Below are positions 884 to 42,038 of a DNA stretch of 48,172 nt, piece by piece. The stretch spans positions 1 through 48,172 of IMG/VR virus record IMGVR_UViG_3300025913_000377, one strand, 5' to 3'. This stretch comes from a virus. Every line of letters starts with the position of its first letter. Within the stretch, counting starts at the first letter, position 1. The position numbers and the translations under genes were made by a program. The notes under the pieces were generated by a model. The model was not told the DNA's origin. It saw nothing but the letters and a program-made list of their open reading frames with translations, and ran no database searches.

Positions 884-927
884 GGAGAGGTGGCCGAGTG
901 GTTTAAGGCAGCGGTCTTGAAAACCGC
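884..927 (+). pseudogene. Host 5' half of tRNA-Ser(TGA), severed by prophage integration (attL side)
   Basis: GGAGAGG acceptor strand at 884-890, D-arm with GCC/GGC stem, and anticodon arm through 927 match a serine tRNA. After 927 the sequence turns into phage DNA (TAGCAGAGAACACC) with no variable arm, T-arm or CCA. Joining 884-927 to 44489-44534 recreates a well-folded tRNA-Ser, which is the inferred uninterrupted attB. A weak upstream promoter (TTGCAC at 844-849, CAAAGC at 867-872) could still fire and read into the left-arm phage genes. Confidence 0.9.
908..927 (+). repeat. attL core, 20-bp direct repeat in the tRNA anticodon arm
   Basis: The 20 bases GCAGCGGTCTTGAAAACCGC are identical to 44469-44488. 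The core covers the whole anticodon stem-loop (GCGGT, loop CTTGAAA, ACCGC) and is itself a near-perfect inverted repeat. Flanking bases differ on both sides, so the crossover lies within this block. Confidence 0.93.
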
Positions 928-1041
928 TAGCAGAGAACACCGCAACACCGCAGAAAACTCCCAAACCCGCAGAAGTCCTAGCCGAAACAACCGCGTTCCC
1001 CGCCTGTTCGCGAAGAACATCCGGGCACAGGAGTCGGCACA

Positions 1042-1359
1042 ATGAAAAAGTCACCCATCGAAATCCGCGTTGAGGCCCGTAATCTGGCGACGGAGTATGC
1101 GCTCGATCCCGTCATCGCTTTCGAGGAATATTGGGGCGCGTCGAAATACCGCACGCGCAACATGATCGGCTACAGCGACAAGAAGTGCCTTGCGTGGGAA
1201 GCATTCCAACAGGGGCTCTCCGCGTCAGTCGATGAGCGCCCGGAGGGCCAAGACCCGCAGGGGCTTGGTGCGCAGCACGCCAGCGCGGCGCCCGAAGGGC
1301 GGACGCCCAACCTCAGTCGCCCTATTCCAGACACCCTGAATGCGGGAGGGTGTGAATGA
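1042..1359 (+). CDS. Phage hypothetical protein, first gene of the left-arm operon
   Basis: 105 residues, not recognised. The ATG follows CAGGAGTCGGCACA, a plausible ribosome site. The N-terminal 60 residues are charged and look folded; the tail from about residue 60 is Gly/Ala/Pro-rich and contains the peptide PEGQD, which recurs in the HNH gene at 38750-39394 together with matching DNA. The 3' end overlaps the next start by 4 bases. In the excised phage this is the first gene downstream of attP and the integrase. Confidence 0.75.
   Translation: MKKSPIEIRVEARNLATEYALDPVIAFEEYWGASKYRTRNMIGYSDKKCLAWEAFQQGLSASVDERPEGQDPQGLGAQHASAAPEGRTPNLSRPIPDTLNAGGCE
1221..1254 (+). repeat. Copy 1 of a dispersed 34-bp repeat (partner 39277-39310)
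   Basis: CGCGTCAGTCG, seven variable bases, then CCCGGAGGGCCAAGAC. The copy at 39277-39310 has both blocks identical with the same 7-base spacing. Both are read in the same frame, giving ASV-x3-PEGQD, near the C-terminus of two otherwise different phage proteins. Confidence 0.85.
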
Positions 1360-1652
1360 GCGGGCTTGTCCTTTGGTCTGACGACCTCACCGACGCACAG
1401 TTGAAGATGGTCATGGCCTGCAAGGGTGATGGCACGCAGCTTGGTGATAGCGTCGGCTACGAACTGCGCGGCTCTGAGTTCACCGTTGCTCGCGCGCTGG
1501 AACGCAAGGGCCTTGGTGAGATCGAAGGCATTGGCGGTTCTCTGCCCCCGATGTTCTGGCTCAACGAAGAAGGCGTCCGCATCGCGCACGAGTTCGATGA
1601 CGAGACTGATGACGGATACGACCCCCTGAATGATGGGGAGGGGCTGTCATGA
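1356..1652 (+). CDS. Phage hypothetical protein
   Basis: 98 residues, acidic C-terminus (FDDETDDGYD), no family recognised. Start ATG overlaps the stop of the preceding gene (ATGA junction) and the stop overlaps the next start in the same way, so it is translationally coupled in the left-arm operon. The phrase ERKGLGEI in mid-protein resembles a short helix-turn segment, but that is not enough to assign function. Confidence 0.7.
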   Translation: MSGLVLWSDDLTDAQLKMVMACKGDGTQLGDSVGYELRGSEFTVARALERKGLGEIEGIGGSLPPMFWLNEEGVRIAHEFDDETDDGYDPLNDGEGLS

Positions 1653-1846
1653 GCCCGTTCCTGGCGATAGCCGACCTGACAGACGGGACCTTTGCTGTCG
1701 TGGCGATCGATCCGACCCGGCGGGTTGGAGACGGCTGCGCTGCGATCGTTCAATCGCTGCATCACACCAGAGATGGGGCCGTGTCAGCGATCGAAGGACC
1801 GCTGCCTCTCCCCAACCCCTCGAATGAGGGAGGCGCGCGTGGGTGA
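1649..1846 (+). CDS. Phage hypothetical small protein
   Basis: 65 residues, starting in a 4-base overlap with the upstream gene and ending 8 bases inside the next gene. The first 50 residues read like a small beta-rich domain; the last 15 are Pro/Asn/Gly-rich. No family recognised. The tight packing and continuous reading frame are the main support. Confidence 0.6.
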   Translation: MSPFLAIADLTDGTFAVVAIDPTRRVGDGCAAIVQSLHHTRDGAVSAIEGPLPLPNPSNEGGARG

Positions 1847-2186
1847 GCCTGTCGAAATACTCAGCCTCGGCTACACCGACCCGCGTGTCGAGGCGACGAA
1901 GAAGCGTTGGTATCAGGCGCTCAAGCCGTTCTCGCTGAAGGCGCATTATCACGCCGCGAACCTCGCCGCCCACAACTGGGATGTGCTGCTGATCGACGAT
2001 CGCATCCTTCTTTTTCAGACGAAGTACGGAGGTGACGCCGGCCATTGGGTCAACCTCGATGGTTCGCATGAGGTCGTCTCATCGGCTGAAATGGACCGCC
2101 TGTACCAACGCGAGGAAGGCGGAGCCATGCGGAGGCTGTTCGACACGTCCGCCGCCAGCCTCCGAGCAATAGGAGAGGGATTGTGA
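1839..2186 (+). CDS. Phage hypothetical protein, GTG start
   Basis: 115 residues from a GTG at 1839, chosen because GAGGGAGG (1826-1833) lies just upstream and it overlaps the preceding stop; a longer upstream extension of the same frame would overlap the preceding gene heavily. The protein has a mixed alpha/beta pattern (DVLLIDDRILLFQTKYGG) and an N-terminal region rich in aromatic and Lys residues. Not recognised. Confidence 0.65.
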   Translation: MGEPVEILSLGYTDPRVEATKKRWYQALKPFSLKAHYHAANLAAHNWDVLLIDDRILLFQTKYGGDAGHWVNLDGSHEVVSSAEMDRLYQREEGGAMRRLFDTSAASLRAIGEGL

Positions 2187-2338
2187 CGGACGAACGCCGC
2201 TGGTCGCCATGTCGCGTTCAGTGCGCATGGTGTGCGGATCGCGGGATTGTCTGCAATGCGGCTCGGCGACCCAGGCCAGCCCTCGCCACACCCCCTTCAC
2301 CTTCCCCTGACATGGATAAGGATATGATCGATGGTTGA
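2183..2338 (+). CDS. Small cysteine-rich phage protein, possible zinc finger
   Basis: 51 residues from a GTG overlapping the upstream stop (GTGA), preceded by AGGAGAGG. It contains C-x3-C-x2-C within CRVQCAWCADRGIVC plus a further Cys, a pattern typical of tiny phage zinc-binding proteins. The second half is Pro-rich. The stop overlaps the next ATG by 8 bases. Function unknown; zinc binding is inferred only from cysteine spacing. Confidence 0.55.
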   Translation: MTDERRWSPCRVQCAWCADRGIVCNAARRPRPALATPPSPSPDMDKDMIDG

Positions 2339-2543
2339 CCAAGCGCTGATAAATCTCATCATCGCCGCGCGAGAAGCGTTCGATACGGGTAGCTTGCCCG
2401 CTGATGAAGAACGTGCGCTTGACCGCGCCCTGGAGCCTTATTCGGCTGTCGTGCCGTATGCGGATGAGCAGACGGTCATGTCCGGTGCGGTACGGCGAGC
2501 GCGTTACGAGCTCGGGGTGTTGCTGCCCCAGCGTTCGTCATGA
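2331..2543 (+). CDS. Phage hypothetical small protein
   Basis: 70 residues, predicted mostly alpha-helical (ALINLIIAAREAFD, EERALDRALEPY). It starts inside the end of the upstream gene and ends with a 4-base overlap to the next. No family recognised. Confidence 0.65.
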   Translation: MVDQALINLIIAAREAFDTGSLPADEERALDRALEPYSAVVPYADEQTVMSGAVRRARYELGVLLPQRSS

Positions 2544-2776
2544 CCTCCATCCCCACGATAGCGTCCAAGCTGACGAGCCTCGCAGGTACGTTCGGCACTG
2601 AGGGCTATGCGATTCTGCGTGAGGCGCGGCGCGCTGGCCCCGATCACAGCAAATGGCCCCGGATAAGCCCCGATGAGGCGAAGGCCATAACGGATGATCT
2701 GCATCGCGCAAACGAACTGGCCGAACAGGTCCGCGAGTTTGTCCGCACCCACCTACAGAAGGAAGCGAGCAAGTGA
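2540..2776 (+). CDS. Phage hypothetical small helical protein
   Basis: 78 residues, helical throughout, ending in a charged helix (HRANELAEQVREFVRTHLQ). ATGA overlap with the upstream gene and GTGA overlap with the downstream gene support real coupled translation. No recognised domain. Confidence 0.65.
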   Translation: MTSIPTIASKLTSLAGTFGTEGYAILREARRAGPDHSKWPRISPDEAKAITDDLHRANELAEQVREFVRTHLQKEASK

Positions 2777-3066
2777 GCGAGGAACAGATGATGAGCGAGC
2801 AAGAGCCTGACCTGTCGTGGATCGACATCGCCGTGTGCCGCAATGCCACCGTGATCGCCGACTTCTCGCCCGGATGGAAAGAGTATTTCGACAGCCTGGA
2901 TTTGCATGTCGAGGATTGCATCGAGACGGCGCGCGAAATGCCAACGGAAGTCGGCATGTACCGTTGGTCCGACTACACTCTGAAATATTGGGATGAAGGC
3001 GACAATCCGAACATCTCGGGCGGCACATTCGCGCTACACCCCTCTCTCGAAAGCCCCCAGCCATGA
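2773..3066 (+). CDS. Phage hypothetical protein, GTG start
   Basis: 97 residues, acidic, with many aromatic residues (SPGWKEYFDSLDL, MYRWSDYTLKYW). GTG at 2773 overlaps the preceding stop; an alternative ATG lies a few codons in (SEEQMMSEQ). No family recognised. The end overlaps the next start by 4 bases. Confidence 0.65.
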   Translation: MSEEQMMSEQEPDLSWIDIAVCRNATVIADFSPGWKEYFDSLDLHVEDCIETAREMPTEVGMYRWSDYTLKYWDEGDNPNISGGTFALHPSLESPQP

Positions 3067-3815
3067 ACACAGATGATCGAGCGCTTGCGGACCAACTGAG
3101 TCGGCTACGTGACACACCCACCAACGAACTCACACAAGAGGACCTCGTATGGTGGCTTCGCCAACCCGGCCAAAATGTACCAACACGCGTGCGCGTCCTC
3201 GCCGCAGACAGACTAGAAGCCTTCCACGCCAAACCGCCCGTGCCGACAGAACGCCTGACGCACTACCCAGATTACATTGATGACCCGGAAGGGCTGGAAC
3301 GCTTCCGGACCAGTGTAATTGAAGCGCGCGATCGCCACGACATGGCGCCGGTGAACTTCAATTCGCTGGGCCGCCTGATCGACACAATCGACAGGCTCGC
3401 CGCCCTGCAATCCCCGCCTCCCATAGTAGAGGAAGGGCGGCGGGAGGCGGACGAACTTGAGTACGAGTTCGAGCAGGAAGTCGACGAATTTGCCTTGAGC
3501 TGGCCCGATGGGCGCTGGCTGGTCGCGCACGGCACCGGCAAAATCCATTTTGGGAAATCACCGCGCGATTCTGCCATTCCGATCCGCACGACGAACTTGG
3601 ACGCCATTCTCGCGCTAACCCCCGTTGAAGGGGCGGGGGAGATCGGGGACGAGTTGCGCAAGAACCCGGAGGCGATTTGGCTATCTCCGCGATGCGAAAC
3701 CGATCTCGGCAGAACTTGGGCGAGCCCAGCGCCAGACCGCGAATGCGGAGGTTGTGGCCTGCCTTGGGTCAAGTACGTGCGCTCCGATCTTGCCGCCCTC
3801 TCCCCCCCCCCGTAG
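3063..3815 (+). CDS. Phage hypothetical protein ending at a C10 tract
   Basis: 250 residues. A helical N-terminal half (LADQLSRL, DRLEAFHAK), an acidic linker (EADELEYEFEQEVDEF) and a C-terminal half with cysteines (RECGGCGLPW) that looks like the first half of a zinc ribbon. Translation ends immediately after a run of ten C bases (3802-3811). A -1 shift on that run would continue into a frame encoding CDNCGTEW and CHLC, completing a zinc ribbon and giving a protein of about 294 residues ending at 3946. The true product may therefore be longer. Confidence 0.7.
   Translation: MNTDDRALADQLSRLRDTPTNELTQEDLVWWLRQPGQNVPTRVRVLAADRLEAFHAKPPVPTERLTHYPDYIDDPEGLERFRTSVIEARDRHDMAPVNFNSLGRLIDTIDRLAALQSPPPIVEEGRREADELEYEFEQEVDEFALSWPDGRWLVAHGTGKIHFGKSPRDSAIPIRTTNLDAILALTPVEGAGEIGDELRKNPEAIWLSPRCETDLGRTWASPAPDRECGGCGLPWVKYVRSDLAALSPPP
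3802..3811 (+). repeat. Homopolymeric C10 tract at the end of a coding region
   Basis: Ten consecutive C bases close the 3063-3815 gene. Such runs are prone to replication or transcriptional slippage. With eleven C bases, or a -1 shift, the reading frame opens into the zinc-ribbon frame downstream. Confidence 0.95.
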
Positions 3816-3844
3816 CCGCGCAGGGGGATGAGGTACGGGAGCAG

Positions 3845-3946
3845 GTGTGTGACAATTGCGGCACTGAATGGTTCTCGACGGATGGCAAATGCCACCTTTG
3901 CCGTCGCGGTCTGCCCACCCTCGCAGGAGCGCCCCATGAAGGATGA
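3845..3946 (+). CDS. Zinc-ribbon segment: separate mini-gene or frameshifted extension of the upstream gene
   Basis: The frame from 3812 to 3946 encodes VCDNCGTEWF and GKCHLCRRGL, a clear CxxC-x11-CxxC zinc ribbon. If it is its own gene, the best start is GTG 3845 after GGAG, giving 33 residues. Equally it may be the C-terminal part of the 3063 gene, reached by slippage on the C10 tract. The stop overlaps the next ATG by 11 bases. Confidence 0.5.
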   Translation: MCDNCGTEWFSTDGKCHLCRRGLPTLAGAPHEG

Positions 3947-4328
3947 TGCTGAACGAGCGCGGGAACGCTTGGGTAAGTTGGTCGCTGAGTCAGGTCGCTA
4001 TTCGAGTGTGGCTAGCCATGCTTTTGCAACCCAGGGCCGTGACATCTTCATCCTCGCCAGCGATGCTATCGAGCTTGCTGTCGCCTTTGCACAGCAGCCA
4101 GAGGGGTCAATCACCGACGATGAGGCGTTCGTCTGGCGGTGGGTCGAGCGAGCGCTCTATGATCCAACGGTGCCCATGACTGACGCTCTGAACGTTCTCG
4201 CGCACTATCCCGGCGCGCCGTGGAACCGGATGCGCTGGAATGTCGACCACAAGTCGTATGCCGACCAGTTCTACCGCAATCACCCCGCAGCCATGCTCGA
4301 CGTAGCGCCGATACCAGGGGAAGAGTGA
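3936..4328 (+). CDS. Phage hypothetical protein
   Basis: 130 residues from ATG 3936, chosen over an upstream in-frame ATG (3828) because AGGAG sits just before it and the longer form would overlap the zinc-ribbon frame. The sequence shows a helical N-terminus (AERARERLGKLVAE) followed by an acidic, Trp-rich middle (AFVWRWVERAL). Not recognised. The TGATG junction couples it to the next gene. Confidence 0.7.
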   Translation: MKDDAERARERLGKLVAESGRYSSVASHAFATQGRDIFILASDAIELAVAFAQQPEGSITDDEAFVWRWVERALYDPTVPMTDALNVLAHYPGAPWNRMRWNVDHKSYADQFYRNHPAAMLDVAPIPGEE

Positions 4329-4669
4329 TGGAGCTTGAACCATGCCCTTTCTGCGGCAACCGGCTGCAGGCGTCCAGTGTGCAAGCCGTCCACCCGATAG
4401 TTGATGGCGGCTGCTTTCTGGAGGGCACGGGATTCGATGCGAGCGAGTTTGGTGTTTGGAACACCCGCACCTCTACCGCATCCGAAGCCGAGAGGGTCAG
4501 AGAGGCAGCAACCGCGTTGGTTGCCAAGCTGGACGAATGCGACCCGCACCTGACCAGCATGTTCAGCTTCGCGCTGGCGCACGATCATCTGTACAGCGGG
4601 CCGACCTATGGTGAAGAGCTTGAGGCTCTGCGCGCTGCTATCCGTTCCCTTCCGATCGGTGAGGAATAG
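4328..4669 (+). CDS. Lar-like (restriction alleviation family) zinc protein
   Basis: 113 residues from ATG 4328, overlapping the preceding stop. The N-terminus MELEPCPFCGN and the later phrase VWNTR match the start and end of the Lar / phage zinc-ribbon family (L-x-PCPFCG ... WNTR/WNRR). In the Rac prophage, Lar modulates host type I restriction. Here the second CxxC pair of the usual ribbon is missing; only one Cys lies between. The extra C-terminal 60 residues are helical. Family membership is reasonable, while an anti-restriction role is inference from the family. Confidence 0.6.
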   Translation: MELEPCPFCGNRLQASSVQAVHPIVDGGCFLEGTGFDASEFGVWNTRTSTASEAERVREAATALVAKLDECDPHLTSMFSFALAHDHLYSGPTYGEELEALRAAIRSLPIGEE

Positions 4670-4711
4670 TAGCTGTGCACCACAGAGCTAACACGCGGAG
4701 GGGTCTTTGAT

Positions 4712-4885
4712 ATGTGGACGTTAATTCTCATCATTCAGGGCTGCTGCTCAGCCGGCAGCTCAGGCCGGGCCATGACCACTGTCACCGGCCTACCGACGCA
4801 AGCCGCGTGCGTTGCGACCGGCGAGGCTGTGAGCGCCAAAACGTGGGGCGTCGTCTTCCATTGTGCTAAGGTCGCTAAGAGATGA
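4712..4885 (+). CDS. Small Cys-containing phage protein, possibly membrane-associated
   Basis: 57 residues from ATG 4712, preceded by GGAGGGG. The N-terminus MWTLILIIQGCCSAGSS is hydrophobic and could act as a short membrane anchor or signal. Four Cys in all. The TGA overlaps the ATG of the next mini-gene (GATGA). Not recognised. Confidence 0.5.
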   Translation: MWTLILIIQGCCSAGSSGRAMTTVTGLPTQAACVATGEAVSAKTWGVVFHCAKVAKR

Positions 4886-4977
4886 ACGTTGGCCCCACCC
4901 TCGTTGAACTCGGTCTATGGATACTAGCTTTCACCCTTATAGCTGCTGCTATACATTGGGTGAGGAGGAGATGGTGA
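4882..4977 (+). CDS. 31-residue single-pass membrane peptide
   Basis: A short ORF that starts in overlap with the upstream stop and ends in overlap with the downstream ATG. It encodes one strong transmembrane helix (LGLWILAFTLIAAAIHWV) followed by the basic tail RRRW, so the expected topology is N-out, C-in. Small membrane peptides of this kind are common in early phage operons. Function unknown. Confidence 0.5.
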   Translation: MNVGPTLVELGLWILAFTLIAAAIHWVRRRW

Positions 4978-5192
4978 TGACGATTCTACAGGCTATGACG
5001 CCGCTCGCCGTGCGCGATCATCAGATATTCGTACCGGTTCGCGCGGTCGGGAACAGCATCCTCGATAACGGAGGCGACACGATAGCGGTCTGTGCCAACG
5101 ATCGGCTAGCGGCGGGGATTGCCTCCGCGATCAACCAAGATGCTGCGCGAGATCCGTATGCCACGATCCGGTCCGTCTCTCCCAATCCCTGA
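4977..5192 (+). CDS. Phage hypothetical small protein
   Basis: 71 residues from ATG 4977, preferred because it overlaps the upstream stop (ATGA) and follows GAGGAGG; ATG 4971 is the alternative. Beta-rich in the middle (IFVPVRAVGNSIL), then helical. Last clearly + strand gene before a 400-base stretch holding the minus-strand tRNA-like element. Confidence 0.55.
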   Translation: MTILQAMTPLAVRDHQIFVPVRAVGNSILDNGGDTIAVCANDRLAAGIASAINQDAARDPYATIRSVSPNP

Positions 5193-5198
5193 GATAGG

Positions 5199-5342
5199 CT
5201 AGCGCTTCGTCCGCTTCGACCGGCTGGCATGAAAGAACCCCTCCACTTCCTCCTTCCAGGATCTAGGCTTGGGTATATCTGGCATCATCTCGGGAGGGAT
5301 GCCGATGGGGATGCCGAATCTCTCGTCGGGTTCGTATTTCAT
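5199..5342 (-). CDS. 47-codon minus-strand ORF downstream of the tRNA-like element
   Basis: Encodes MKYEPDERFGIPIGIP at the N-terminus and a basic C-terminus (SRSKRTKR). The amino-acid composition and codon use look coding rather than random, but no ribosome site is visible. It lies 36 bases downstream of the minus-strand tRNA-like element, so the two may share a transcript. Between convergent operons, its placement would suit a small independent cassette. Confidence 0.4.
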   Translation of the reverse strand: MKYEPDERFGIPIGIPPEMMPDIPKPRSWKEEVEGFFHASRSKRTKR

Positions 5343-5378
5343 GCGGCTAACGTGCGACGCGGTTTCCAACAAGGGAAG

Positions 5379-5455
5379 TGGCTACAGTCGGTGGGGTTCG
5401 AACCCACGGCGCCCGGAGTATCAGCCGACACATTGCTCCAAGCGTCTTGCTGTCG
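5379..5455 (-). tRNA. tRNA-like element, degenerate acceptor stem, possible GAT (Ile) anticodon
   Basis: On the minus strand there is a perfect T-arm (GTGGG, TTCGAAC, CCCAC), a D-arm (GACGC pairing with GTGTC, loop with TTGG), an anticodon region CTGATACT and a terminal GCCA. The anticodon stem is only 4 bp around an 8-base loop, and the acceptor strands pair at only about 4 positions (ACAG with CTGT). It could be a decayed phage tRNA or an unusual one with an enlarged loop. Boundaries at the 5' end are approximate. Confidence 0.4.
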
Positions 5456-5600
5456 TTCACCCTTGGACCAAACATCCCAGCCTAGCCGTTTCCGGTATCT
5501 GGGCGCTATCTCAGGCACGACCGCAGCACAATGCCTGCGTAATTGATAATACCCTCCCCGTCAAGTTGCGTTCGGTAGAGGAAAGGAGTAAGGTTCAGGG

Positions 5601-5780
5601 ATGGAAGACCTGCCGTCATTCACGTTGTCGCCCAGTCAAGGCGTGCAACTACTTTCGCTGGCTGCGATGATCTGCGCAGGTGATGTGGATTTTCGGGGGT
5701 ATGGCCGGGAAGACGAAGAGAATGCTCGGAAGCTGATCGCTGACGTAGCGCAAGAGATCGCGCTCCAAGTGCCCGCGTAA
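5601..5780 (+). CDS. Phage hypothetical small protein coupled to HNH nuclease
   Basis: 59 residues from ATG 5601, ending TAATG so that the stop shares a base with the HNH start. Acidic helical protein (SQGVQLLSLAAMI, EENARKLIADVAQEIAL). An AAAGGAG box about 15 bases upstream is rather distant. No family recognised. Confidence 0.55.
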   Translation: MEDLPSFTLSPSQGVQLLSLAAMICAGDVDFRGYGREDEENARKLIADVAQEIALQVPA

Positions 5781-6073
5781 TGGCGAAGGTCCCGCGAGAC
5801 ACCCGCCTCGCCGTCTGGCAGCGCGATCAGTGGAGGTGCCGCTATTGCAAACGCTCGGTCCTAAAGCCAAGCGATGATGCGCCAGAGTATCTGTGGGCCA
5901 CGATCGATCATGTTACACCACGCGCAAAGGGCGGAAGCAATAAACCGTCCAATTTGGTCACATCGTGCAAGCCGTGTAACGCCGCTAAGGGCTCCCACAG
6001 CGCAGAGGCGTACCGGGCGGGGCATGTGGATCGTCTAAGACCAGCAACCGCACTAAAGATGGGCTGGCGCTAG
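5780..6073 (+). CDS. HNH endonuclease
   Basis: 97 residues with a complete HNH fold: RDQWRCRYC, then ATIDHVTPRAKGG, then NLVTSCKPCNAAKG. The Cys pairs form the structural zinc site, the DH pair and the final Asn are the catalytic metal site. Such nucleases nick or cut dsDNA; in phages they assist packaging or act as homing enzymes. It is the last gene of the left-arm operon and converges with the late operon, a position that does not reveal its job. Confidence 0.88.
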   Translation: MAKVPRDTRLAVWQRDQWRCRYCKRSVLKPSDDAPEYLWATIDHVTPRAKGGSNKPSNLVTSCKPCNAAKGSHSAEAYRAGHVDRLRPATALKMGWR

Positions 6074-6093: not shown

Positions 6094-6156
6094 TCTAACC
6101 CCTAGCTGCCGTGGGCATTCTGCTTGAGTCGTTACTTGCCTCGTGTCCACGGCGCC

Positions 6157-6450
6157 TTAGGGGGAGGGGCAAGTGGGGTGCGGCAACTTGTTTGCCTGAG
6201 CCCAACGGCAGAGGCGGGCAACAGCGGCCCACCCCCTATCACCCCAAGCCTCCACGTCGCTGCTGTATTTAGCCGCAGCCGTGTCGTCCGTGATAGCCGC
6301 ATCCGGCATCACTGGCTTGATCTCAGTAGTGATATCAGCAACCGGCGGCCCGATCGGTACGACCTGGATGCTGTTGCGTCCACCGCACGCAGTTAGCGGC
6401 GCGAGTAGCAGCGCCAGTGCTAGAAGGCGGCGCGGAGGATATAACGACAT
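6157..6450 (-). CDS. Outer-membrane spanin lipoprotein (Rz1-like)
   Basis: 97 residues with a lipoprotein signal: basic start PPRR, hydrophobic stretch LLALALLLAP, and lipobox LTAC with Cys22 as the lipidation site, followed by Gly-Gly. Spanin o-subunits link to the inner-membrane partner and fuse the two membranes in the last lysis step. The start lies inside the Rz-like gene in another frame, the classic nested arrangement, but the C-terminus runs 178 bases past it. Typical Rz1 proteins are shorter and more Pro-rich. Confidence 0.75.
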   Translation of the reverse strand: MSLYPPRRLLALALLLAPLTACGGRNSIQVVPIGPPVADITTEIKPVMPDAAITDDTAAAKYSSDVEAWGDRGWAAVARLCRWAQANKLPHPTCPSP

Positions 6451-34451: not shown

Positions 34452-34491
34452 ATCATAAATTCCCAACGCTGCAACCAAAAAGTGTTGGGAA
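34452..34491. promoter_or_regulatory. Left operator region with two GTTGGGAA half-sites and divergent promoter
   Basis: TTCCCAAC (34460-34467) and GTTGGGAA (34484-34491) form an inverted pair with 16 bases between. On the minus strand the first site continues into TTTATGAT, giving a -10 box TATGAT (34457-34452) for the Cro-like gene. The 16-mer GTTGGGAATTTATGAT (minus strand 34467-34452) is identical to 36573-36588 on the plus strand. Confidence 0.75.
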
Positions 34492-34526
34492 TGTATGAAA
34501 TAGGCATTGCGTGCCCGTTATGGGAT

Positions 34527-35015
34527 ATGGCCGCCATGGCCAAATCTCAGGGCAAGACAGAGGAAAGCCAGAAACGGGCGGTCGTATTAGCGGCGCGCCT
34601 TGAGCAGATACGCCCCGATGGATGGTCGGAGCGTCAGTGGTGCCTCAAGGCAGGGGTCAGCTCGTCATTCTTCTCAAATATGCGAGGGACGCCCACAAAG
34701 CCGCCTAGCGAGCCCTCTATCGGGAACCTGCGACTTGTTCTTGAAACAGCGGGAACGTCGCTTCCGGAGTTTTTCGTTGCCGAGGCGCGCGGGAGGGTCG
34801 TTCGGACGCCGAATAGACGAGAGCTAGAGCGGGCTTTTGCCGAAGCCTTGCCAGGCCTGCCACGGGCACCGGACAGGCGCGCGCAATATCTCGTTCAATC
34901 CGTTGCAGATGTCCTTGGGCTTCCCTCAGGTCTTCGCGAAATGCCGGGTAACGACGAGATGTCAGAGGCGGGCGATCGCGAAGCAACCGCTCCTGTTCGG
35001 CGAGCCACCAAGTAA
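34527..35015 (+). CDS. CI-like XRE-family repressor lacking a peptidase domain
   Basis: 162 residues from ATG 34527 (34536 also possible). The N-terminal DNA-binding domain reads WSERQWCLKAGVSSSFFSNM ... PSIGNLRLVLETAGTSLPEF, the XRE/HTH pattern typical of sphingomonad prophage repressors. The C-terminal 80 residues are Arg/Ala/Pro-rich and carry no S24 Ser/Lys dyad. Divergent from the Cro-like gene and flanked by the operators, so it should maintain lysogeny. A 249-base stretch without a clear gene follows. Confidence 0.7.
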   Translation: MAAMAKSQGKTEESQKRAVVLAARLEQIRPDGWSERQWCLKAGVSSSFFSNMRGTPTKPPSEPSIGNLRLVLETAGTSLPEFFVAEARGRVVRTPNRRELERAFAEALPGLPRAPDRRAQYLVQSVADVLGLPSGLREMPGNDEMSEAGDREATAPVRRATK

Positions 35016-35165: not shown

Positions 35166-35198
35166 CATGTTCATGTTTCGTTCCGAAATTCCAACATG
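35166..35198. promoter_or_regulatory. Inverted repeat upstream of the PemK/MazF-like gene
   Basis: Two tandem CATGTT units (35166-35177) and an inverted AACATG (35193-35198), with TTCCGAAATT between. The arrangement looks like a protein-binding operator; its distance of about 70 bases from the gene is compatible with promoter control. Confidence 0.4.
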
Positions 35199-35264: not shown

Positions 35265-35684
35265 ATGGCTCTCCAAATTCATCCCAATCCAGGCACGATC
35301 GTCATCTGTGATTACAGCACAGGCTTCAAGGAACCCGAAATGGTGAAACGGCGTCTGGCAATAGTCGTCTCGCCTCGTCTTAGGAGGCGCAGCAACCTTT
35401 GCTCAGTTGTCCCGCTTTCTACGACCGCGCCAGACCCGCTGGAGCCATGGCATCTGCGGTTGGAGTTCGCCAATCCACTCCCATCACCTTGGGATTCGCC
35501 TGTCATGTGGGCAAAGGCTGACATGGTCGCGACCGTCGCGTTCTCCCGTCTGTCCCTGCCGTTCGACGGGAGAGACGCGTTCCGCAATCAAAGGCGATAT
35601 ATTCAGCGTTTAGTGGGGGATGATCAGCTATCCAGCATCAGGCGATGCGTGGCTGCTGCCCTAGGCATAGTCATTGAACGTTAA
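35265..35684 (+). CDS. PemK/MazF-like toxin (endoribonuclease fold)
   Basis: 139 residues. PNPGTIVICDYSTGFKEPEM, then KRRLAIVVSPRLR, SVVPLSTTAPDP and WAKADMVATVAFSRL follow the PemK/MazF core: G-x-I strand, P-V/I-V-V-x-S, T-S/T-T and a D-Q/M-helix segment. These toxins cleave mRNA and serve in prophage stability or phage exclusion. The usual small antitoxin gene is not visible immediately upstream; the repressor at 34527-35015 is the only upstream partner in the same direction. Confidence 0.75.
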   Translation: MALQIHPNPGTIVICDYSTGFKEPEMVKRRLAIVVSPRLRRRSNLCSVVPLSTTAPDPLEPWHLRLEFANPLPSPWDSPVMWAKADMVATVAFSRLSLPFDGRDAFRNQRRYIQRLVGDDQLSSIRRCVAAALGIVIER

Positions 35685-36132: not shown

Positions 36133-36516
36133 TCATTTCTTCAGGCACGGATATTTGTCAGCCAGCGCCTTGAAGAACGTGCCTACAAGTAAAGCTTTGC
36201 CTTCGGCTGGGTGAGCTTTGACATAGGCGATCATGATGGCGCGTTCATCTATGGACTCTGGCCGCCCTCCTGGCACACAGAAAAGCAGATTATCAAAGCC
36301 TTTCCCGTTTTGAGAGTTAGTGATCGCCGCGCCTAGTCTAAGGCCGTCTGACATACCGCGCGTAAGGGCATTGCAGGCAATGACGGCCGTTGCGTCCGTC
36401 AACGTACAGAGATGCACATAGTCATCTGCTGTGCTTAGCTGTTTGGGTAGCTCTTCAGCCGTCGCTGGCATGCCCCAGTTAGCCGCCGCGACAGCCACGA
36501 GAATTAGCCTTCGCAT
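36133..36516 (-). CDS. Rap1a/Tai-like exported protein
   Basis: 127 residues with a signal peptide ending ATA before EELPK. Four Cys and the end pattern FCVPGGRPESIDERAIMIAY, HPAEGKALLVGTFFKALADKYPC match the Rap1a/Tai family of small periplasmic proteins, some of which neutralise type VI amidase effectors. In a prophage it may protect the lysogen's envelope or act in exclusion. Preceded by AGAGGGG. Confidence 0.65.
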   Translation of the reverse strand: MRRLILVAVAAANWGMPATAEELPKQLSTADDYVHLCTLTDATAVIACNALTRGMSDGLRLGAAITNSQNGKGFDNLLFCVPGGRPESIDERAIMIAYVKAHPAEGKALLVGTFFKALADKYPCLKK

Positions 36517-36572: not shown

Positions 36573-36625
36573 GTTGGGAATTTATGATTTTTCCGCTTGA
36601 CGTGTCATTAATTCCCAACGTATAC
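36573..36625 (+). promoter_or_regulatory. Right early promoter and operators
   Basis: GTTGGGAA (36573-36580) and TTCCCAAC (36612-36619) are copies of the left-operator half-site. The promoter is TTGACG (36597-36602), 17 bases, GTATAC (36620-36625); the second operator fills the spacer up to the -10 box, so a bound repressor would block RNA polymerase. It drives the 36661-44367 operon. Confidence 0.75.
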
Positions 36626-36660
36626 CCCCTTCAACACGATCAGAGTGTTGGAGGCGGAAT

Positions 36661-37125
36661 ATGGTTCAGGATGTGGAAGTTGGGCGCGCCGCTGACGCGG
36701 AAGCTGCTCTATCGGCTTCGCCGACCGCGCCTGTAGTCGCGGCCCTGCCGGGTAACGATCAGCCGCGCGACTATGTTAACGAAATGTTCGCCGCGCTGAT
36801 CAAGCGAAACGCGGACGGTATGCGCGAACGGGAAACGCACGTTCTTCCGCGTGTGTCATGCAAGTCTGGGCTCAACTTTTCGGTTCAGGCCAGCAGTTCC
36901 CATTATTGCTCGCCTCGCGACGATCGCGGCCCATGGCATATGGTTGAGATCGGGTACCCGACACGCAAGATTCCCGCTTGGTTGGAATATGCCGAGGAAG
37001 TCGGCGCGCCTCTCCAGACGGTCTACGGCTATGTTCCCGTCGCCGTCGTGAACGCTACGATTGCTGCCAATGGCGGCTGGAGCAAGGCGACCGAAAAGCG
37101 CCTCGCTGAGCAGGCTTCGGCATGA
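36661..37125 (+). CDS. First gene of the rightward early operon; hypothetical
   Basis: 154 residues, ATG after GGAGGCGGAAT. Its N-terminal segment (GRAADAEAALSASP, then GNDQPRDYV) is related at protein and DNA level to that of the 42290-42688 gene. The rest holds VSCKSGLNFSVQASSSHYCS and IGYPTRKIPAWLEYAEE. First early gene products often subvert the host; no function is recognised here. Confidence 0.7.
   Translation: MVQDVEVGRAADAEAALSASPTAPVVAALPGNDQPRDYVNEMFAALIKRNADGMRERETHVLPRVSCKSGLNFSVQASSSHYCSPRDDRGPWHMVEIGYPTRKIPAWLEYAEEVGAPLQTVYGYVPVAVVNATIAANGGWSKATEKRLAEQASA
36750..36768 (+). repeat. Copy 1 of a 19-bp repeat (partner 42454-42472)
   Basis: GGGTAACGATCAGCCGCGC differs from 42454-42472 by one base. 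Both lie within related N-terminal coding segments that also share TGGGCGCGCC and GGAAGCTGCTCTA upstream, indicating a duplicated domain. Confidence 0.85.
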
Positions 37126-37484
37126 CCGCTAACTCCCACCCTATAGAAGAACCGATGCGCGTTTCGGACGTGCTGGACCGTGCTGCCGATCTTCTGACGC
37201 CGGAAGGCGCTTGGACGCAGGAACTTTTTGCCCGCGATATCTGCGGGGGCCCATTGTCCGCTGGGTTCGATGAGGGAGCCGTATGCTGGTGCGCGATTGG
37301 CGCTATAGAAAAGGTGACTGGAGAGGAATTCCTTGAAGAGCTTCCCGTTCTCGCCGCCCAGCAACTCGAAAGCGTCCTTCTTACTGCAATCCCGCCTTGG
37401 AACGACGCTCCAGAGCGCACTCAAGCTGAGGTCGTAGCCAAGCTGCGCGAAGCCGCCGCCCTCGCACGGGAGCGAGGCGCATGA
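37122..37484 (+). CDS. DUF6197-like phage protein
   Basis: 120 residues. VSDVLDRAADLLTPEGAWTQ, AVCWCAIGAIEKVTG and IPPWNDAPERTQAEVVAKL correspond to the conserved blocks of DUF6197 (L-x2-AAD ... CW-x-x-GA ... WND-x3-RT). The biochemical role is not known. Four-base overlaps with both neighbours. Confidence 0.65.
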   Translation: MTANSHPIEEPMRVSDVLDRAADLLTPEGAWTQELFARDICGGPLSAGFDEGAVCWCAIGAIEKVTGEEFLEELPVLAAQQLESVLLTAIPPWNDAPERTQAEVVAKLREAAALARERGA

Positions 37485-37705
37485 AAGCCCCCATCTCACA
37501 AGAACCCGGTGACTGGATGGCATTGCCTTTTTCAGTCCGAGATGGCGTGTTCCATGCCATTCTCGATCCCGGCGCGGTCGTTGGCTATCGGCTGGAAGCA
37601 TCAGACGGCGCGCTGGAAACAGCCGCTCACTGGCAAGCAAGGGCGGCCATAGAGGCAATGCGGTTGGCTGGCTGGCGGTACGTTGGCGAAGGCCGCGCAG
37701 CATGA
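37481..37705 (+). CDS. Phage hypothetical small protein
   Basis: 74 residues; WMALPFSVRDGVFHAILDPG and WQARAAIEAMRLAGWRYVGE show a small beta sheet followed by one helix. Overlaps both neighbours by 4 bases. Not recognised. Confidence 0.6.
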   Translation: MKAPISQEPGDWMALPFSVRDGVFHAILDPGAVVGYRLEASDGALETAAHWQARAAIEAMRLAGWRYVGEGRAA

Positions 37706-37923
37706 ACGCCCCCTCTCACATCAAGGCACACAACGCTCTCCGTTACTGCCCTACCTGCACAGCAATGTCAGAGATGGCTGAAGACGGAACGTGTCTTGAA
37801 TGCCTCTCCATCATAGACCTGACCCTCTGGCAGGAAACAGAGGAAGCATGGGCTTCTGATGCTCGCGCAATGGAGGCCGAGGAATTGGCTCCGCGCGTCA
37901 TCGTTTGGGATTTCACGAGATGA
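37702..37923 (+). CDS. Small zinc-finger-like phage protein
   Basis: 73 residues with CPTCTAM and GTCLECLS, a CxxC-x11-CxxC zinc ribbon, then an acidic Trp/Glu-rich tail (WQETEEAWASDARAMEAEEL). Probably a protein- or nucleic-acid-binding adapter; function unknown. Confidence 0.6.
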   Translation: MNAPSHIKAHNALRYCPTCTAMSEMAEDGTCLECLSIIDLTLWQETEEAWASDARAMEAEELAPRVIVWDFTR

Positions 37924-38246
37924 GCCGCGACGTTCACCCCTACTGGCGCATCTTCGCCGAGGAAGTGCCCTGTGAATTGGGCATCACACTGACAGATGAT
38001 CAGGTCACGGCGCTTGCGCATGCCATTGAGGGGGCGGCCGAGAACCAATCGACCGGGTGTGGCTGGGATCACATTCCCAATCCCGACCGAGCGGAGATCG
38101 AACGCCTTGAGCGGCAATTGAAAGCCGTGCGGGCGGAGGCTGAAAATGCCGAAGACGTGTGGCGCAACGCCTTTGCGTTCATCGGCGGCGTTCGTCCTAG
38201 CGAACTGTATCGCGATGGCAATCGTATCAAGGTCGGAGGCTTCTGA
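37920..38246 (+). CDS. Phage hypothetical protein with coiled coil
   Basis: 108 residues from ATG 37920, overlapping the previous stop (ATGA). An N-terminal domain (WRIFAEEVPCELGITLTDDQ), a short Cys/Trp segment and a coiled coil (AEIERLERQLKAVRAEAENA). Not recognised, but similar layouts occur in many phage early proteins. Confidence 0.65.
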   Translation: MSRDVHPYWRIFAEEVPCELGITLTDDQVTALAHAIEGAAENQSTGCGWDHIPNPDRAEIERLERQLKAVRAEAENAEDVWRNAFAFIGGVRPSELYRDGNRIKVGGF

Positions 38247-38314
38247 TGGCCAGCCTTACCCCCTTCTTTGCGTCCGATCGGGCGCTCAACCGTGGATATG
38301 GGAGAGTGTTGTGA
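38246..38314 (+). CDS. 22-residue coupled mini-ORF
   Basis: ATG 38246 shares a base with the preceding stop and the stop overlaps the next GTG. The peptide MASLTPFFASDRALNRGYGR is followed by VL. It may be a real micropeptide or merely a translation-coupling element between its neighbours. Confidence 0.3.
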   Translation: MASLTPFFASDRALNRGYGRVL

Positions 38315-38487
38315 CCGATAAAGATTTCGTACGCGACGCGAGGAAGCGTTGGGACAAGATTCTCGATTACGCGAACGATCCGGCGAAAGACGGGACTGCC
38401 GCAGCAATCGCGATTGGCATGTGGGCGACGATGAATGTCGATCGCCTGCTTAAGATCGCTGCCACCAAAACCGAAGGCCGGTCATGA
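38311..38487 (+). CDS. Phage hypothetical small protein, GTG start
   Basis: 58 residues from GTG 38311 after GGGAGAG, in overlap with the preceding mini-ORF stop. Helical (RDARKRWDKILDYANDPAKD, IAIGMWATMNVDRLLKIA). The longer form of the frame runs through the upstream gene and is not needed. Confidence 0.55.
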   Translation: MTDKDFVRDARKRWDKILDYANDPAKDGTAAAIAIGMWATMNVDRLLKIAATKTEGRS

Positions 38488-38750
38488 TCCCCCTCCCCGA
38501 GATCAAGGTAACCGACAAGACCATTCCTGTTCTGGAAAGCTTGGGGGTGTGCCTGAATAGGATGATTGAACTTCAGATGCAGGCTTACCCGTCTGTTTGG
38601 TCTGATGCTGAGCGACGCGAGGAAGCGGAGAAGTTTCTTTATGGAGACTTGGCGAATGCGGCTGCGCCGCACCGCGCTGCCAGCCTTCGGCCTCAGCCTG
38701 CTTCGCAGTCTTCGCGGAGTGGCATCGACTTTCGCGGGGAGTTAGGCTGA
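38484..38750 (+). CDS. Phage hypothetical protein
   Basis: 88 residues. Helical middle (LNRMIELQMQAYPSVW, RREEAEKFLYGDLANAA) and a Ser/Arg/Gln-rich tail. It shares its last base with the HNH start. Unknown function. Confidence 0.6.
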   Translation: MIPLPEIKVTDKTIPVLESLGVCLNRMIELQMQAYPSVWSDAERREEAEKFLYGDLANAAAPHRAASLRPQPASQSSRSGIDFRGELG

Positions 38751-39394
38751 TGGCATCCCTCCCTATTCGCCGCCAGCAATTCGACGTGCAAGGGTTCGCG
38801 TCATGGTTGGCACGGAACGGCGCGGAGGTTGGCATCCCCACCAATCCCTATGAAGTAATCCGCTATCGCGCTTACGATCGGTCGGGCGCCAAAGCCGCGA
38901 CCCACATCGTCTATTCGAAGGAGAATGGACTTCTCAATTTCCAGGGTAGTTCGCGCGAGCACTACACCCTGTTCTCTAGCGGGTGCGATTTCCTCAGACC
39001 GCAAGCGCTTACGACGCCGACAGCGGTTGCGCCAAAGGCTGCCAAGCTGAGCAAAACCGCATTTGCGCGCGAGAAACTTTTGCAGCGCGACGGCGATGAA
39101 TGCTGGTTCTGTGGTCTGGCAATGGGCGACGATATCACCATCGAGCACTTAGTTCCCAAGTCTGCCGGCGGCGGCAACAAGCTTGCAAACTACGCCTTGG
39201 CCCATGCCCGCTGCAATCATCTAGCGGCCGACAAGCCGCTGATCGAGAAGATTGAACTGCGATCGGCAATGCGCGCCGCGTCAGTCGGTACCCACCCGGA
39301 GGGCCAAGACGGCGAAGCTGGCTTGGTACGTAGCATGGGTGGCGCGGTGGCGCAGCCAGACGCCCAAACCACCCCATCGGAGAACCCCTCATGA
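38750..39394 (+). CDS. HNH endonuclease with N-terminal accessory domain
   Basis: 214 residues. Residues 1-90 form an accessory domain (FDVQGFASWLARNGAEVG, YRAYDRSGAKAATHIVYSK). The HNH core at about 110-165 has RDGDECWFCGLAMG, ITIEHLVPKSAGGG and NYALAHARCNH, with the catalytic Glu-His and final Asn-His in place. The C-terminal tail repeats the PEGQD element of the first left-arm gene. Likely a DNA nuclease active early in infection. Confidence 0.82.
   Translation: MASLPIRRQQFDVQGFASWLARNGAEVGIPTNPYEVIRYRAYDRSGAKAATHIVYSKENGLLNFQGSSREHYTLFSSGCDFLRPQALTTPTAVAPKAAKLSKTAFAREKLLQRDGDECWFCGLAMGDDITIEHLVPKSAGGGNKLANYALAHARCNHLAADKPLIEKIELRSAMRAASVGTHPEGQDGEAGLVRSMGGAVAQPDAQTTPSENPS
39277..39310 (+). 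repeat. Copy 2 of the dispersed 34-bp repeat
   Basis: CGCGTCAGTCG, seven variable bases, CCCGGAGGGCCAAGAC, matching 1221-1254 with identical spacing. It lies near the 3' end of the HNH gene, in the same frame as copy 1 (ASV-x3-PEGQD). Confidence 0.85.
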
Positions 39395-39762
39395 CAACCA
39401 AGGTGATCCAAGCGGATAGGGAAGCTGCGGCAAAGCTTGCCGACTGGTTCGGCACGGAGCTGGGCATCGATGGCAATGATCTTGCCGCCATCCTCAATGG
39501 TGCGTGGGACGATGAGATTGATGATTTAGGCGCCATCGTTACCGCCTTCGCCTCTCATGCTGATCCGTTGAGAAGGGCTCTGGAGAAGATCGCGGAAGGC
39601 GATGAGCCTAGGCCGGTCGGAAAGTCGTGGTTCCCCGACAAGCGGGTCAGCAAGCACGACCAATGCACCCATGGTGTCTGGATGTACGAAACCTGCGGAA
39701 ACTGCATCGCAGACTTCGCTCTTGCCGCCCTTAGTAGTGGGGAGAACAACAATGGCGAGTAA
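39391..39762 (+). CDS. Phage hypothetical protein
   Basis: 123 residues. Helical, acidic N-terminus (AAAKLADWFGTELGIDGND) and a C-terminal part with two Cys (HGVWMYETCGNCIADFALAA) that could bind metal with His/Cys upstream (KHDQCTHG). Related helical early proteins are common in sphingomonad phages; function unknown. Confidence 0.65.
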   Translation: MTTKVIQADREAAAKLADWFGTELGIDGNDLAAILNGAWDDEIDDLGAIVTAFASHADPLRRALEKIAEGDEPRPVGKSWFPDKRVSKHDQCTHGVWMYETCGNCIADFALAALSSGENNNGE

Positions 39763-39877
39763 AGATCGGGCGATTGCCGCTTCGCGTCACCGCGTCACTC
39801 AGGCTTCGCCCCAAGCCGCTGCGCGTCTTGGCCATTCGGTGAGTACCGCATATCGCAATCAAGGAGACAATCTGTGA
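39752..39877 (+). CDS. 41-residue basic phage protein
   Basis: ATG 39752 lies in the end of the upstream gene after GGGGAG; the stop overlaps the GTG of the ERF gene. SRHRVTQASPQAAARLGHSV looks like a helix-turn segment with basic character. Likely a small accessory to the recombination genes. Confidence 0.5.
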   Translation: MASKDRAIAASRHRVTQASPQAAARLGHSVSTAYRNQGDNL

Positions 39878-40464
39878 TCGAGCAGAGTGAAAGCATCGCC
39901 GCGCTCTCGAAAGCCCTGACCCAGGTTCAGGGCAGCGTAGAGGGTGCGGTCAAGGGCAAGGTGAACCCTGCCTTCAAGTCCAAGTACGCCGATCTGACGA
40001 GCGTGTGGGAAGCCTGCCGCGAGCCGCTGGTGATGAACGGCCTGTCGGTCGTGCAATTCCCCGGCGAGATGATCGACAACCGCATGACGCTCACCACCCA
40101 GCTTTCGCACGAAAGCGGCGAATGGATGCGCTGCACGCTGTCGATCCCGCTCACCAAGGCGGACGCCCAAGGATACGGCTCGGCCGTCACCTATGCCCGC
40201 CGCTACGCCCTGGCTGCCGTTGTCGGCGTGTGCCCCGAGGATGACGACGGCAACGCCGCCAGCCGTGCCACGGCCCGGAATGATACCCGTAACGAGGATC
40301 GCATCACCGAAGCGCAGCGGGTCGAGCTTATGGCCCTTGCGGCGGGCAAAAACACCGACATGAAGGCGTTCTGCACCTTCTACAAAATCGACGCCCTGCC
40401 CGAGCTTCCCGCGTCGAAATACGCGCACGCCAAGGCCGCTCTGACCCGGAAGGAAGCGGCATGA
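39874..40464 (+). CDS. erf: ERF-family single-strand annealing protein
   Basis: 196 residues from GTG 39874 after AAGGAG. The ERF core is clear: LSKALTQVQGSVEGAVKGKV, NPAFKSKYADLTSVWEACRE, LSHESGEWMRCTLSIPLTK and QGYGSAVTYARRYALAAVVG. ERF proteins anneal complementary ssDNA in phage recombination and concatemer formation. The partner exonuclease gene follows with a 4-base overlap, forming a Red-like pair. Confidence 0.9.
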   Translation: MIEQSESIAALSKALTQVQGSVEGAVKGKVNPAFKSKYADLTSVWEACREPLVMNGLSVVQFPGEMIDNRMTLTTQLSHESGEWMRCTLSIPLTKADAQGYGSAVTYARRYALAAVVGVCPEDDDGNAASRATARNDTRNEDRITEAQRVELMALAAGKNTDMKAFCTFYKIDALPELPASKYAHAKAALTRKEAA

Positions 40465-41084
40465 TCGAACAGCGCACCGATGAATGGTTCGCGTCGCGCT
40501 GCGGCAAGGTGACCGCCAGCCGCATCGCCGACGTGATGGCCAAGACCAAGACCGGCTATGGCGCTGGCCGGGCGAACTACATGGCGCAGCTTGTGGCCGA
40601 GCGGCTAACTGGCGCGACGGAGCCCTGCTTCACCAATGCCGCGATGCAATGGGGCACGGAGAAGGAACCCGAGGCGCGCGAGTGCTATTCGTTCCATCGC
40701 GGCTTATCCGTGGTCGAGGAAGGCTTTGTCCCGCACCCGGTAATTGACATGGCCGGCGCGTCGCCAGACGGCCTGGTAGGCGATCACGGGCTCGTGGAAA
40801 TTAAGTGTCCTAACACGGCCACCCACATCGATACCCTGCTGGGCGCTGCGATCGATGACAAGTACATCAAGCAGATGCAGTTCCAGATGGCGTGCTGTGG
40901 TCGCAAATGGTGCGACTTCGCATCCTATGACCCCCGGCTTGGTGTCGAGATGCAATTGCACGTCCGCCGAGTGGAACGCGACGACGCACTGATTGCCGAG
41001 ATCGAGGAAGCAGTTGCCGCGTTTCTGGCTGAGCTTGACGACAAGGTCGCGCGCCTGACTGCCGAGTACCGGAAAGCAGCATGA
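40461..41084 (+). CDS. Lambda-exonuclease/YqaJ-type recombination nuclease
   Basis: 207 residues. TDEWFASRCGKVTASRIADV (RxGxxTAS block), NAAMQWGTEKEPEAREC, then AGASPDGLVGDHGLVEIKCP with catalytic Asp103, Glu113 and Lys115. It degrades the 5' strand of dsDNA ends, providing substrate for the ERF protein encoded just upstream. Confidence 0.92.
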   Translation: MIEQRTDEWFASRCGKVTASRIADVMAKTKTGYGAGRANYMAQLVAERLTGATEPCFTNAAMQWGTEKEPEARECYSFHRGLSVVEEGFVPHPVIDMAGASPDGLVGDHGLVEIKCPNTATHIDTLLGAAIDDKYIKQMQFQMACCGRKWCDFASYDPRLGVEMQLHVRRVERDDALIAEIEEAVAAFLAELDDKVARLTAEYRKAA

Positions 41085-41254
41085 CACTCCCAGAGCGCGC
41101 CCAAATCGCCACACAGACTCGCCAGAGTATGGCCAACGAACGCGCGGCCATTTTCCTGCGGATGCTTGACGATGGCATCAACCGGAAAACGGCGCTGTAC
41201 TATCTTGGCGTTAGCGACCGCACAGCGTCTCGCTACCGGCAGAGGGTGGGCTGA
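41081..41254 (+). CDS. 57-residue helix-turn-helix protein
   Basis: ATG 41081 overlaps the exonuclease stop; the TGATG end couples it to the next gene. Helical with an HTH-like end (DGINRKTALYYLGVSDRTAS followed by RYRQ). Possibly a DNA-binding accessory or regulator of this operon. Confidence 0.6.
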   Translation: MTLPERAQIATQTRQSMANERAAIFLRMLDDGINRKTALYYLGVSDRTASRYRQRVG

Positions 41255-41598
41255 TGCTCCCCCGCCGCATCCCCAAGCCTGCCAAGCGCGCTAGTCGTTG
41301 GCGTAGCCAGGCGCATTGCAACTTCGTGCGCTCGCATAGCTGTTCGTGGAACGGCTGTGACGGTCGCCCGATCGAGGTTGCACACGTCAGGCTCGGGAGC
41401 GGCGCTGGCATAGGCCAAAAGCCGGATGATTTTCTGACGGTAAGTCTGTGCCAGTTTCACCATGCCCAGCAACACCGCGTTGGCGAACAGACCTTTTGGA
41501 AGGGCTTTCCGATCGTGGATTTGATCGAAGAGTTCATCAAGGCGAGCCCGAAGCGGGCAGAGATTGAGCGCATCAGAAAGGAGCGCGAGAATGTCTGA
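41254..41598 (+). CDS. DUF968-like HNH-fold nuclease
   Basis: 114 residues. CSWNGCDGRPIEVAHVRLGS, GAGIGQKPDDFLTVSLCQFH and HHAQQHRVGEQTFW follow the DUF968 pattern (Cys pair, AHVR, G-x-G-x-K-x-D, C-x2-HH, H-x2-G). This family is related to HNH nucleases and is found next to phage recombination genes, where it likely processes DNA structures. Confidence 0.78.
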   Translation: MLPRRIPKPAKRASRWRSQAHCNFVRSHSCSWNGCDGRPIEVAHVRLGSGAGIGQKPDDFLTVSLCQFHHAQQHRVGEQTFWKGFPIVDLIEEFIKASPKRAEIERIRKERENV

Positions 41599-42028
41599 TC
41601 GCATCGCCCCGCTCCACTTCGCCAAGACGGTGCAGGGCTTTGTCCCGGTATCCGCTGCCGCCCGCGAGTTCCACGCCAAGACCAAGATCGGCCAGCGCGT
41701 GGAACTGAAAGGCCGGCGCCCGCGCAACGCCGCTCATCACCGCAAGCTGTTCGCGCTCCTGGCATTGCTGGCGGACAACCGGGACGAGTTCTCATCGGCT
41801 GATGACGCATTGCTCGGGCTTAAGGCCGTGCTTGGTTACGGGTCATGGAAGCTGCTGCATCCGAAGGCCGAACGTGAAGTGTTCGTGCCCGACAGCATCG
41901 CTTTCGAGAACATGGCGCAGGACGATTTTGAAGCATTCTACGAACAGGCGATCGCTGCCGTCCAACGTTGGTGGCTGCCGGTTGCCGACAACGATTTACG
42001 CGAAGCCATCGAAGCCTTCGCAGCATAG
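41591..42028 (+). CDS. DUF1367-like phage protein
   Basis: 145 residues from ATG 41591, overlapping the DUF968 gene by 8 bases. IGQRVELKGRRPRNAAHHRK and LFALLALLADNRDEFSSADD, then VFVPDSIAFENMAQDDFEAF resemble DUF1367, a family accompanying DUF968/NinB in lambdoid recombination regions. The function is unknown; a recombination accessory is inferred. Confidence 0.68.
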   Translation: MSDRIAPLHFAKTVQGFVPVSAAAREFHAKTKIGQRVELKGRRPRNAAHHRKLFALLALLADNRDEFSSADDALLGLKAVLGYGSWKLLHPKAEREVFVPDSIAFENMAQDDFEAFYEQAIAAVQRWWLPVADNDLREAIEAFAA

Positions 42029-42038
42029 GAGAAACGAC

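Follow-up and report, generated by a model that had tools for sequence, protein, structure and literature searches.

The prophage and its attachment sites

The DNA stretch described here, hereafter the window, is a 48,172-nt IMG/VR prophage record (IMGVR_UViG_3300025913_000377) with host DNA on both flanks of a sphingomonad prophage of about 43.6 kb. The prophage is inserted in the anticodon stem-loop of tRNA-Ser(UGA), and its left and right attachment sites, attL and attR, share a common core of 20 bp, GCAGCGGTCTTGAAAACCGC, at 908–927 and 44469–44488. attL is an orphaned host 5' half of the tRNA gene (884–927, + strand), delineated by alignment with attR and with an empty site. attR is part of a rebuilt, intact tRNA-Ser(UGA) gene (44445–44534, + strand; TGA anticodon in the DNA), in which 44445 to about 44488 is phage-borne and the remainder belongs to the host. 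Since the right site lies in an intact tRNA and the left site in a 5' half only, the phage supplies the 5' half and the host retains the 3' half. The features at the two ends suggest that integration exchanges the promoter in front of this tRNA with that in front of the phage left arm, a rightward run of small genes.

The empty site is found in the congener G159 (L070), where the counterpart of the window's left flank (90% identity over 0.93 kb) is contiguous with the 3' half of tRNA-Ser. The size of the element follows from this junction. One UGA isoacceptor was found in G159 among five tRNA-Ser-like matches, of which the two best were checked for their anticodon and the others are merely 70–76% alike. 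The S. baiyangensis and G178 lysogens share the layout of the window, with a single intact tRNA-Ser(UGA) and a single half in each genome. As read from the sequence, the element carries a tRNA 5' half together with a putative promoter for the rebuilt gene, the latter judged by its conservation, which is the arrangement of a 5'-half tRNA replacement.

The phage attachment site is uncut in related phages

The phage attachment site, attP, is uncut in four related phages (L068, L003, L103, and L106), whose integrases are 68–78% identical to that of the window. All four show the same order of integrase gene (int), promoter, half tRNA, P' arm, and left arm. In L068, the window segments 44347–44488 (end of int to core, 94% identity) and 908–1045 (core to first left-arm codon, 98% identity) lie side by side, with no match to the host flanks of the window. 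Past the P' arm, homology ends at roughly the first codon, 1042–1045. Distant integrase relatives (24–37% identity) were excluded from the att analysis. No close integrase was found among the 'phages' records, where all were below 60% identity and the best among the matches listed reached 29%.

The contiguity of the two ends in these four attP sites bears out the original prediction that integration cuts one rightward unit at attP and, at the sequence level, swaps the promoter that faces the left arm. The + strand genes of both arms mostly overlap start to stop. The interval 928–1041, in which the prediction left no room for a terminator or a separate promoter, was searched for both: no + strand promoter-like site was found there, and no + strand terminator-like site was predicted anywhere in 928–5314 or between the int stop codon and the core. 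A strong attenuator hairpin in the leader (880–1060) was considered and rejected, as this region folds no better than shuffled sequences (z 0.06).

Rightward genes directly follow attP in the window, L068, L003, S. baiyangensis (L008/L029), G178 (L023/L066), and L103. L106 has genes of mixed orientation and L009 mainly leftward ones; in L005, rightward orientation is limited to the first short open reading frames. The operon layout after attP is common in the clade, yet not fixed, and its coupling to attP is not universal.

The phage-borne and host promoters

The phage promoter, TTGCAG-16-TATAGT, spans 44389–44416 on the + strand (−35 at 44389–44394, −10 at 44411–44416) and is conserved in six of the seven clade members. 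It is exact in L068 and L008, slightly changed in L106 and L103, and present as TTGCAA-16-TAAGAT in L003. The −35 and −10 elements are retained at a constant distance of 16 nt, and the sequence between them differs from relative to relative. The −35 element falls in a 10-bp copy of the core, TTGCAGCGGT. A co-variation of this repeat with the core is seen in L003; L103 and L023 do not show it, and the idea was set aside. The main duty of the promoter is most likely to restore the essential tRNA-Ser. Two points make this the simplest reason for keeping it. The tRNA of the lysogen depends on what lies upstream of 44445, and a single intact tRNA-Ser(UGA) appears among the tRNA-Ser-like matches of each of G159, S. 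baiyangensis, and G178.

On the other side, attL is preceded by the native host promoter of tRNA-Ser(UGA), TTGCAC-17-CAAAGC, at 844–872 on the + strand (−35 at 844–849, −10 at 867–872). The same −35 and −10 occur in G159, where they precede the whole, apparently single tRNA-Ser(UGA) gene of the empty site. The two promoters were compared with a two-block matrix trained on 32 distinct native sphingomonad tRNA-Ser(UGA) upstream regions, including that of G159, with a TTGCAC-like −35 and a TA(A/T)(A/G)G-like −10. In resemblance to these native promoters, which is what the matrix reports, the host promoter of the window scores 14.4 bits (84th percentile of the 32), against 8.6 bits (31st percentile) for the phage promoter. 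For shuffled sequences, the median is 1.0 and the 95th percentile 6.3 bits. The host promoter had been called weak, a description that holds by the plain sigma-70 consensus and is not borne out by its rank among native promoters or its presence at the intact tRNA gene of G159.

Conserved elements flanking the core

Two GGCACA repeats with a 12-bp period lie on each side of the core on the + strand. Those of the P arm (44370–44387, copies at 44370 and 44382) are both present in seven of seven clade members. The P' arm (1024–1041) has its copies at 1024 and 1036, of which the distal one persists across the clade and the proximal one is variable; this pair and the ribosome-binding region of the first left-arm gene overlap. 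The repeats are probably integrase arm sites.

A LexA-type box, GTTCCCCGCCTGTTC, is located at 995–1009 on the + strand, between the core and the P' arm. Across the seven clade members, GTTC-N7-GTTC followed by GCGnnGAAC recurs at the same aligned position, with GTTT replacing the first GTTC in L023. GTTC-N7-GTTC is the published LexA motif of Caulobacter (PMC12700426). It occurs upstream of lexA in 18 of 18 and upstream of recA in 13 of 14 sphingomonad loci. The window contains four exact copies against 1.17 expected, a number reached by two of 100 shuffles. The box is overlapped by a palindrome, TGTTCGCGAAGAACA, at 1005–1019 (strand not assigned), of which GTTCGCGnnGAAC is conserved in all seven clade members. 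A TGTTC-N5-GAACA palindrome serving as a phage operator elsewhere was rejected, with a single exact copy in the window. A phage recombination protein acting at the GTTC/GAAC elements would be a serious alternative to LexA, because another GAACA comes after the core in each of the seven members of the clade and a GAAC comes after the box.

In L005 and L009, a GATGCAG-N8-CTGCATC-like palindrome is found about 100 bp past the core, where the window clade has its GTTC/GAAC elements. This suggests that the specificity of the bound protein may change between the two clades. A second GTTC-N7-GTTC site in the window, GTTCATGTTTCGTTC at 35169–35183, precedes a PemK/MazF-like toxin gene (35265–35684) by about 80 bp. 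It is possibly linked to the SOS response, and its spacer does not fit the host LexA profile.

The gene arrays on either side of attP

The right arm is a dense + strand operon (36661–44367) that encodes an Erf-like annealing protein (39874–40464), a YqaJ exonuclease of the YqaJ/RecE-like type (40461–41084), a NinB-like protein (41564–42028), a HIT protein (42846–43193), an Xis-like HTH_17 protein (43190–43501), and the tyrosine integrase (probable start 43342, end 44367). A candidate early rightward promoter, TTGACG-18-TATACC, precedes it at 36597–36626 on the + strand. The operator-like sequence AATTCCCAAC, whose repressor-like character is read from sequence, occurs inside the spacer of this promoter (36610–36619) and at 36573–36582. 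Two further copies, at 34458–34467 and 34484–34493, stand as candidate operators directly before a + strand gene for a protein of 158 aa (34539–35015). Its product is helix-turn-helix-like by eye, and has no Pfam match and no useful PHROG match; its position and the repeats make it a candidate repressor gene. The occurrence of AATTCCCAAC is confined to about 34.46–34.49 and 36.57–36.62 kb, and a CI-type operator in the P' arm was accordingly rejected. Divergent from the early operon, a small minus-strand gene (36133–36516) gives a weak, above-cutoff match to a Rap1a-type immunity family (Pfam PF18602).

A repressor probably matters for left-arm expression, because the putative early promoter with its repressor-like operators feeds the operon that is rejoined to the left arm. 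This makes it doubtful that left-arm control does without a repressor, as was originally proposed. The LexA-type box adds to that doubt, since it separates the first left-arm gene from whichever tRNA promoter stands in front.

The left arm (1042–6073, + strand) consists of small, mostly overlapping genes. Their number was re-read as about 15–17, rather than the earlier count of some 18, and the last of them encodes an HNH nuclease. Apart from this gene, the left-arm proteins have nearly no Pfam or PHROG matches. Of 14 window proteins from this arm, one has a detectable relative in the left arms of other phages, of which six from the clade and two from farther away were compared. The att module is therefore shared among these phages, and the cargo is not.

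Several further features were seen in this arm. The protein encoded at 4328–4669 begins with MELEPCPFCGN, including a CPFCG motif weakly resembling that of the restriction-alleviation protein Lar, and its Pfam match is below the cutoff. Within a gap between left-arm genes (5193–5600), the minus strand at 5384–5480 contains a tRNA-like remnant, with a T-arm (GGTTCGAACCC) and tRNA-like ends by eye; it gives a weak match to a tmRNA 3' end (11.6 bits) and no ARAGORN call. Two short, mostly noncoding stretches, 5552–5608 and 6108–6157, are 96–98% identical to L183 despite differing surrounding genes. They are possibly a shared promoter, terminator, or recombination joints.

A probable promoter exchange and alternative explanations

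The explanation that we consider probable is an exchange of promoters, in which the rebuilt tRNA would come under the phage promoter and the left arm would be handed the host tRNA promoter. A temperate phage integrase would recombine in the anticodon stem-loop of tRNA-Ser(UGA), using an attP that carries the tRNA 5' half and a promoter. On integration, the tRNA would be rebuilt from the phage promoter, the phage 5' half, and the host 3' half, and the host tRNA promoter with the host 5' half would be left facing the left arm. The left arm would lie behind the host tRNA promoter in the prophage and behind the phage promoter in the circle, with nearly the same leader in both states, composed of the half tRNA, the P' arm, and the first gene. 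As in lambda, integration would also detach the left arm from the early operon of recombination genes, xis, and int that lies upstream of attP. Excision would rejoin them, and transcription in the circle would likely continue through attP. The att sites, the intact attP of relatives, the conservation of the promoter, the empty site, and the absence of a predicted intervening terminator can be read directly from the sequence. How active each promoter is, the repressor, read-through, and binding by LexA, Int, or Xis are what we infer.

Several observations weigh against this explanation. The promoter matrix speaks of resemblance and not of strength, the host −10, CAAAGC, agrees poorly with the plain sigma-70 consensus, and the host promoter of S. 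baiyangensis has a low matrix score. At attL, the spacing from the −10 to the tRNA is 2 nt shorter than in the G159 site. L023 has lost the shared −35 of the phage promoter and has only a weak alternative site. The L005/L009 clade lacks the phage promoter, and its genes past one short open reading frame are mostly on the opposite strand.

The original prediction went further and described a switch, in which the left arm would be essentially off in the lysogen and turned on through the attP promoter only after excision or during infection. Its geometry is correct, the phage promoter is conserved, integration also cuts the left arm off from the early operon, and Tn916 offers a precedent (PMC11658703). 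However, the promoter that the host leaves at attL natively serves an essential tRNA, is shared with the congener whose site is empty, and is typical of its family, so that a promoter stands before the left arm in the lysogen as well. The left arm also has no predicted insulating terminator, unlike the T1 of Tn916. Silence of the left arm in the lysogen is thus unsupported, as is an on/off control, and we regard such a switch as unlikely. The sequence instead places the left arm behind a predicted promoter both as prophage and as circle, and the event appears to be an exchange of two tRNA promoters. A different proposal denies the promoter-like and GTTC elements any transcriptional role and takes them only as sites of recombination proteins (Int at the core and arms, Xis, IHF). 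GGCACA repeats do flank both elements, the −35 lies within the core copy, and KplE1 has overlapping promoter and att sites (PMC2951348). This proposal is improbable, given that the −10 is retained and the spacer stays 16 nt long despite diverging in sequence, and that an essential tRNA in the lysogen needs a promoter, no other obvious one being present in the phage end.

Control by the SOS response would be an added layer, compatible with promoter exchange. LexA at 995–1009 would stop transcription begun at either tRNA promoter from entering the left arm and/or would prevent the P' arm from being used, and DNA damage would release left-arm expression and/or excision. The motif identical to that of host lexA and recA, held at one aligned place in seven clade members with one mismatch, is consistent with this idea, as are the spacers of the boxes. 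Compared with the host LexA spacer profile, the window and S. baiyangensis spacers are close to consensus (p 0.011 and 0.007); for six lineages taken jointly, p is 0.0002 when random spacers serve as the reference and 0.013 when the motif's other occurrences do. These values are optimistic because the lineages are related and not independent. The L103 and L003 spacers are unremarkable alone, the L005/L009 clade has no box, and the box has no overlapping promoter, whereas one appears to overlap the site at lexA. A phage Xis or some other protein would account just as well for the conserved GAAC half-sites nearby. We therefore hold SOS gating as a tentative possibility. The fuller picture of an attP that combines a tRNA repair cassette, a cargo promoter exchange, and a LexA target, with the SOS repressor gating cargo expression and/or excision, is likewise speculative. 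A literature search for LexA sites inside attP gave no obvious precedent at the level of titles and abstracts. The conserved box may nevertheless link DNA damage to excision or cargo expression.

Comparison with known systems

The gene order resembles that of lambda (J02459), in which a one-strand early operon of exo, bet, gam, xis, and int is followed by attP and further genes and is cut by integration. In the window, a single strand likewise carries the recombination genes, xis and int, attP, and the genes beyond. The lambda attP differs in having no tRNA promoter. The lambda sib element, through which int is retroregulated post-transcriptionally from beyond attP, was not identified in this phage, where 880–1060 folds at the level of shuffled sequences.

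In Tn916, a promoter at one end reads across the joint in the circle, and the integrated genes are promoterless and insulated by the terminator T1 (PMC11658703). A layout in which an end promoter would read across the joint into the genes of the other end is common to both elements. In the window, by contrast, a host promoter is present and no insulator is predicted, an arrangement that differs from expression only after excision.

A closer likeness is found in ICEKp1, ICEclc, and ICEEc1, for which switching between the host tRNA promoter and an end promoter was measured, for int (PMC13023037). In the integrated state, the host tRNA promoter drives the first gene, and in the circular state, the promoter of the other end does so across attP. 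Here, too, the predicted host tRNA promoter faces the first operon with no terminator predicted in between, and the end promoter lies across attP in L068, L003, L103, and L106. These elements differ in that they switch int, sit at the 3' end of the tRNA, and leave the tRNA intact under its own promoter. In the window, int lies upstream of the promoter, the variable left-arm operon would be switched, and the tRNA itself would change promoter. Such insertions would hand the attL-side genes a host housekeeping promoter and not obviously silence them, and variable cargo may be expressed in lysogens.

pTN3-like archaeal integrases use the 5' half of the tRNA, a case seldom met in bacteria (review PMC8371274). 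As in those elements, the phage would supply the 5' half, and the rebuilt tRNA would be expressed from a promoter of the element. The differences are that the window holds a bacterial phage and that its promoter lies between int and the core and is not the integrase promoter. By its sequence features, the window clade represents a bacterial case of this rare 5'-half arrangement, in which a phage can insert midway in an essential tRNA gene harmlessly by bringing the front half and a promoter.

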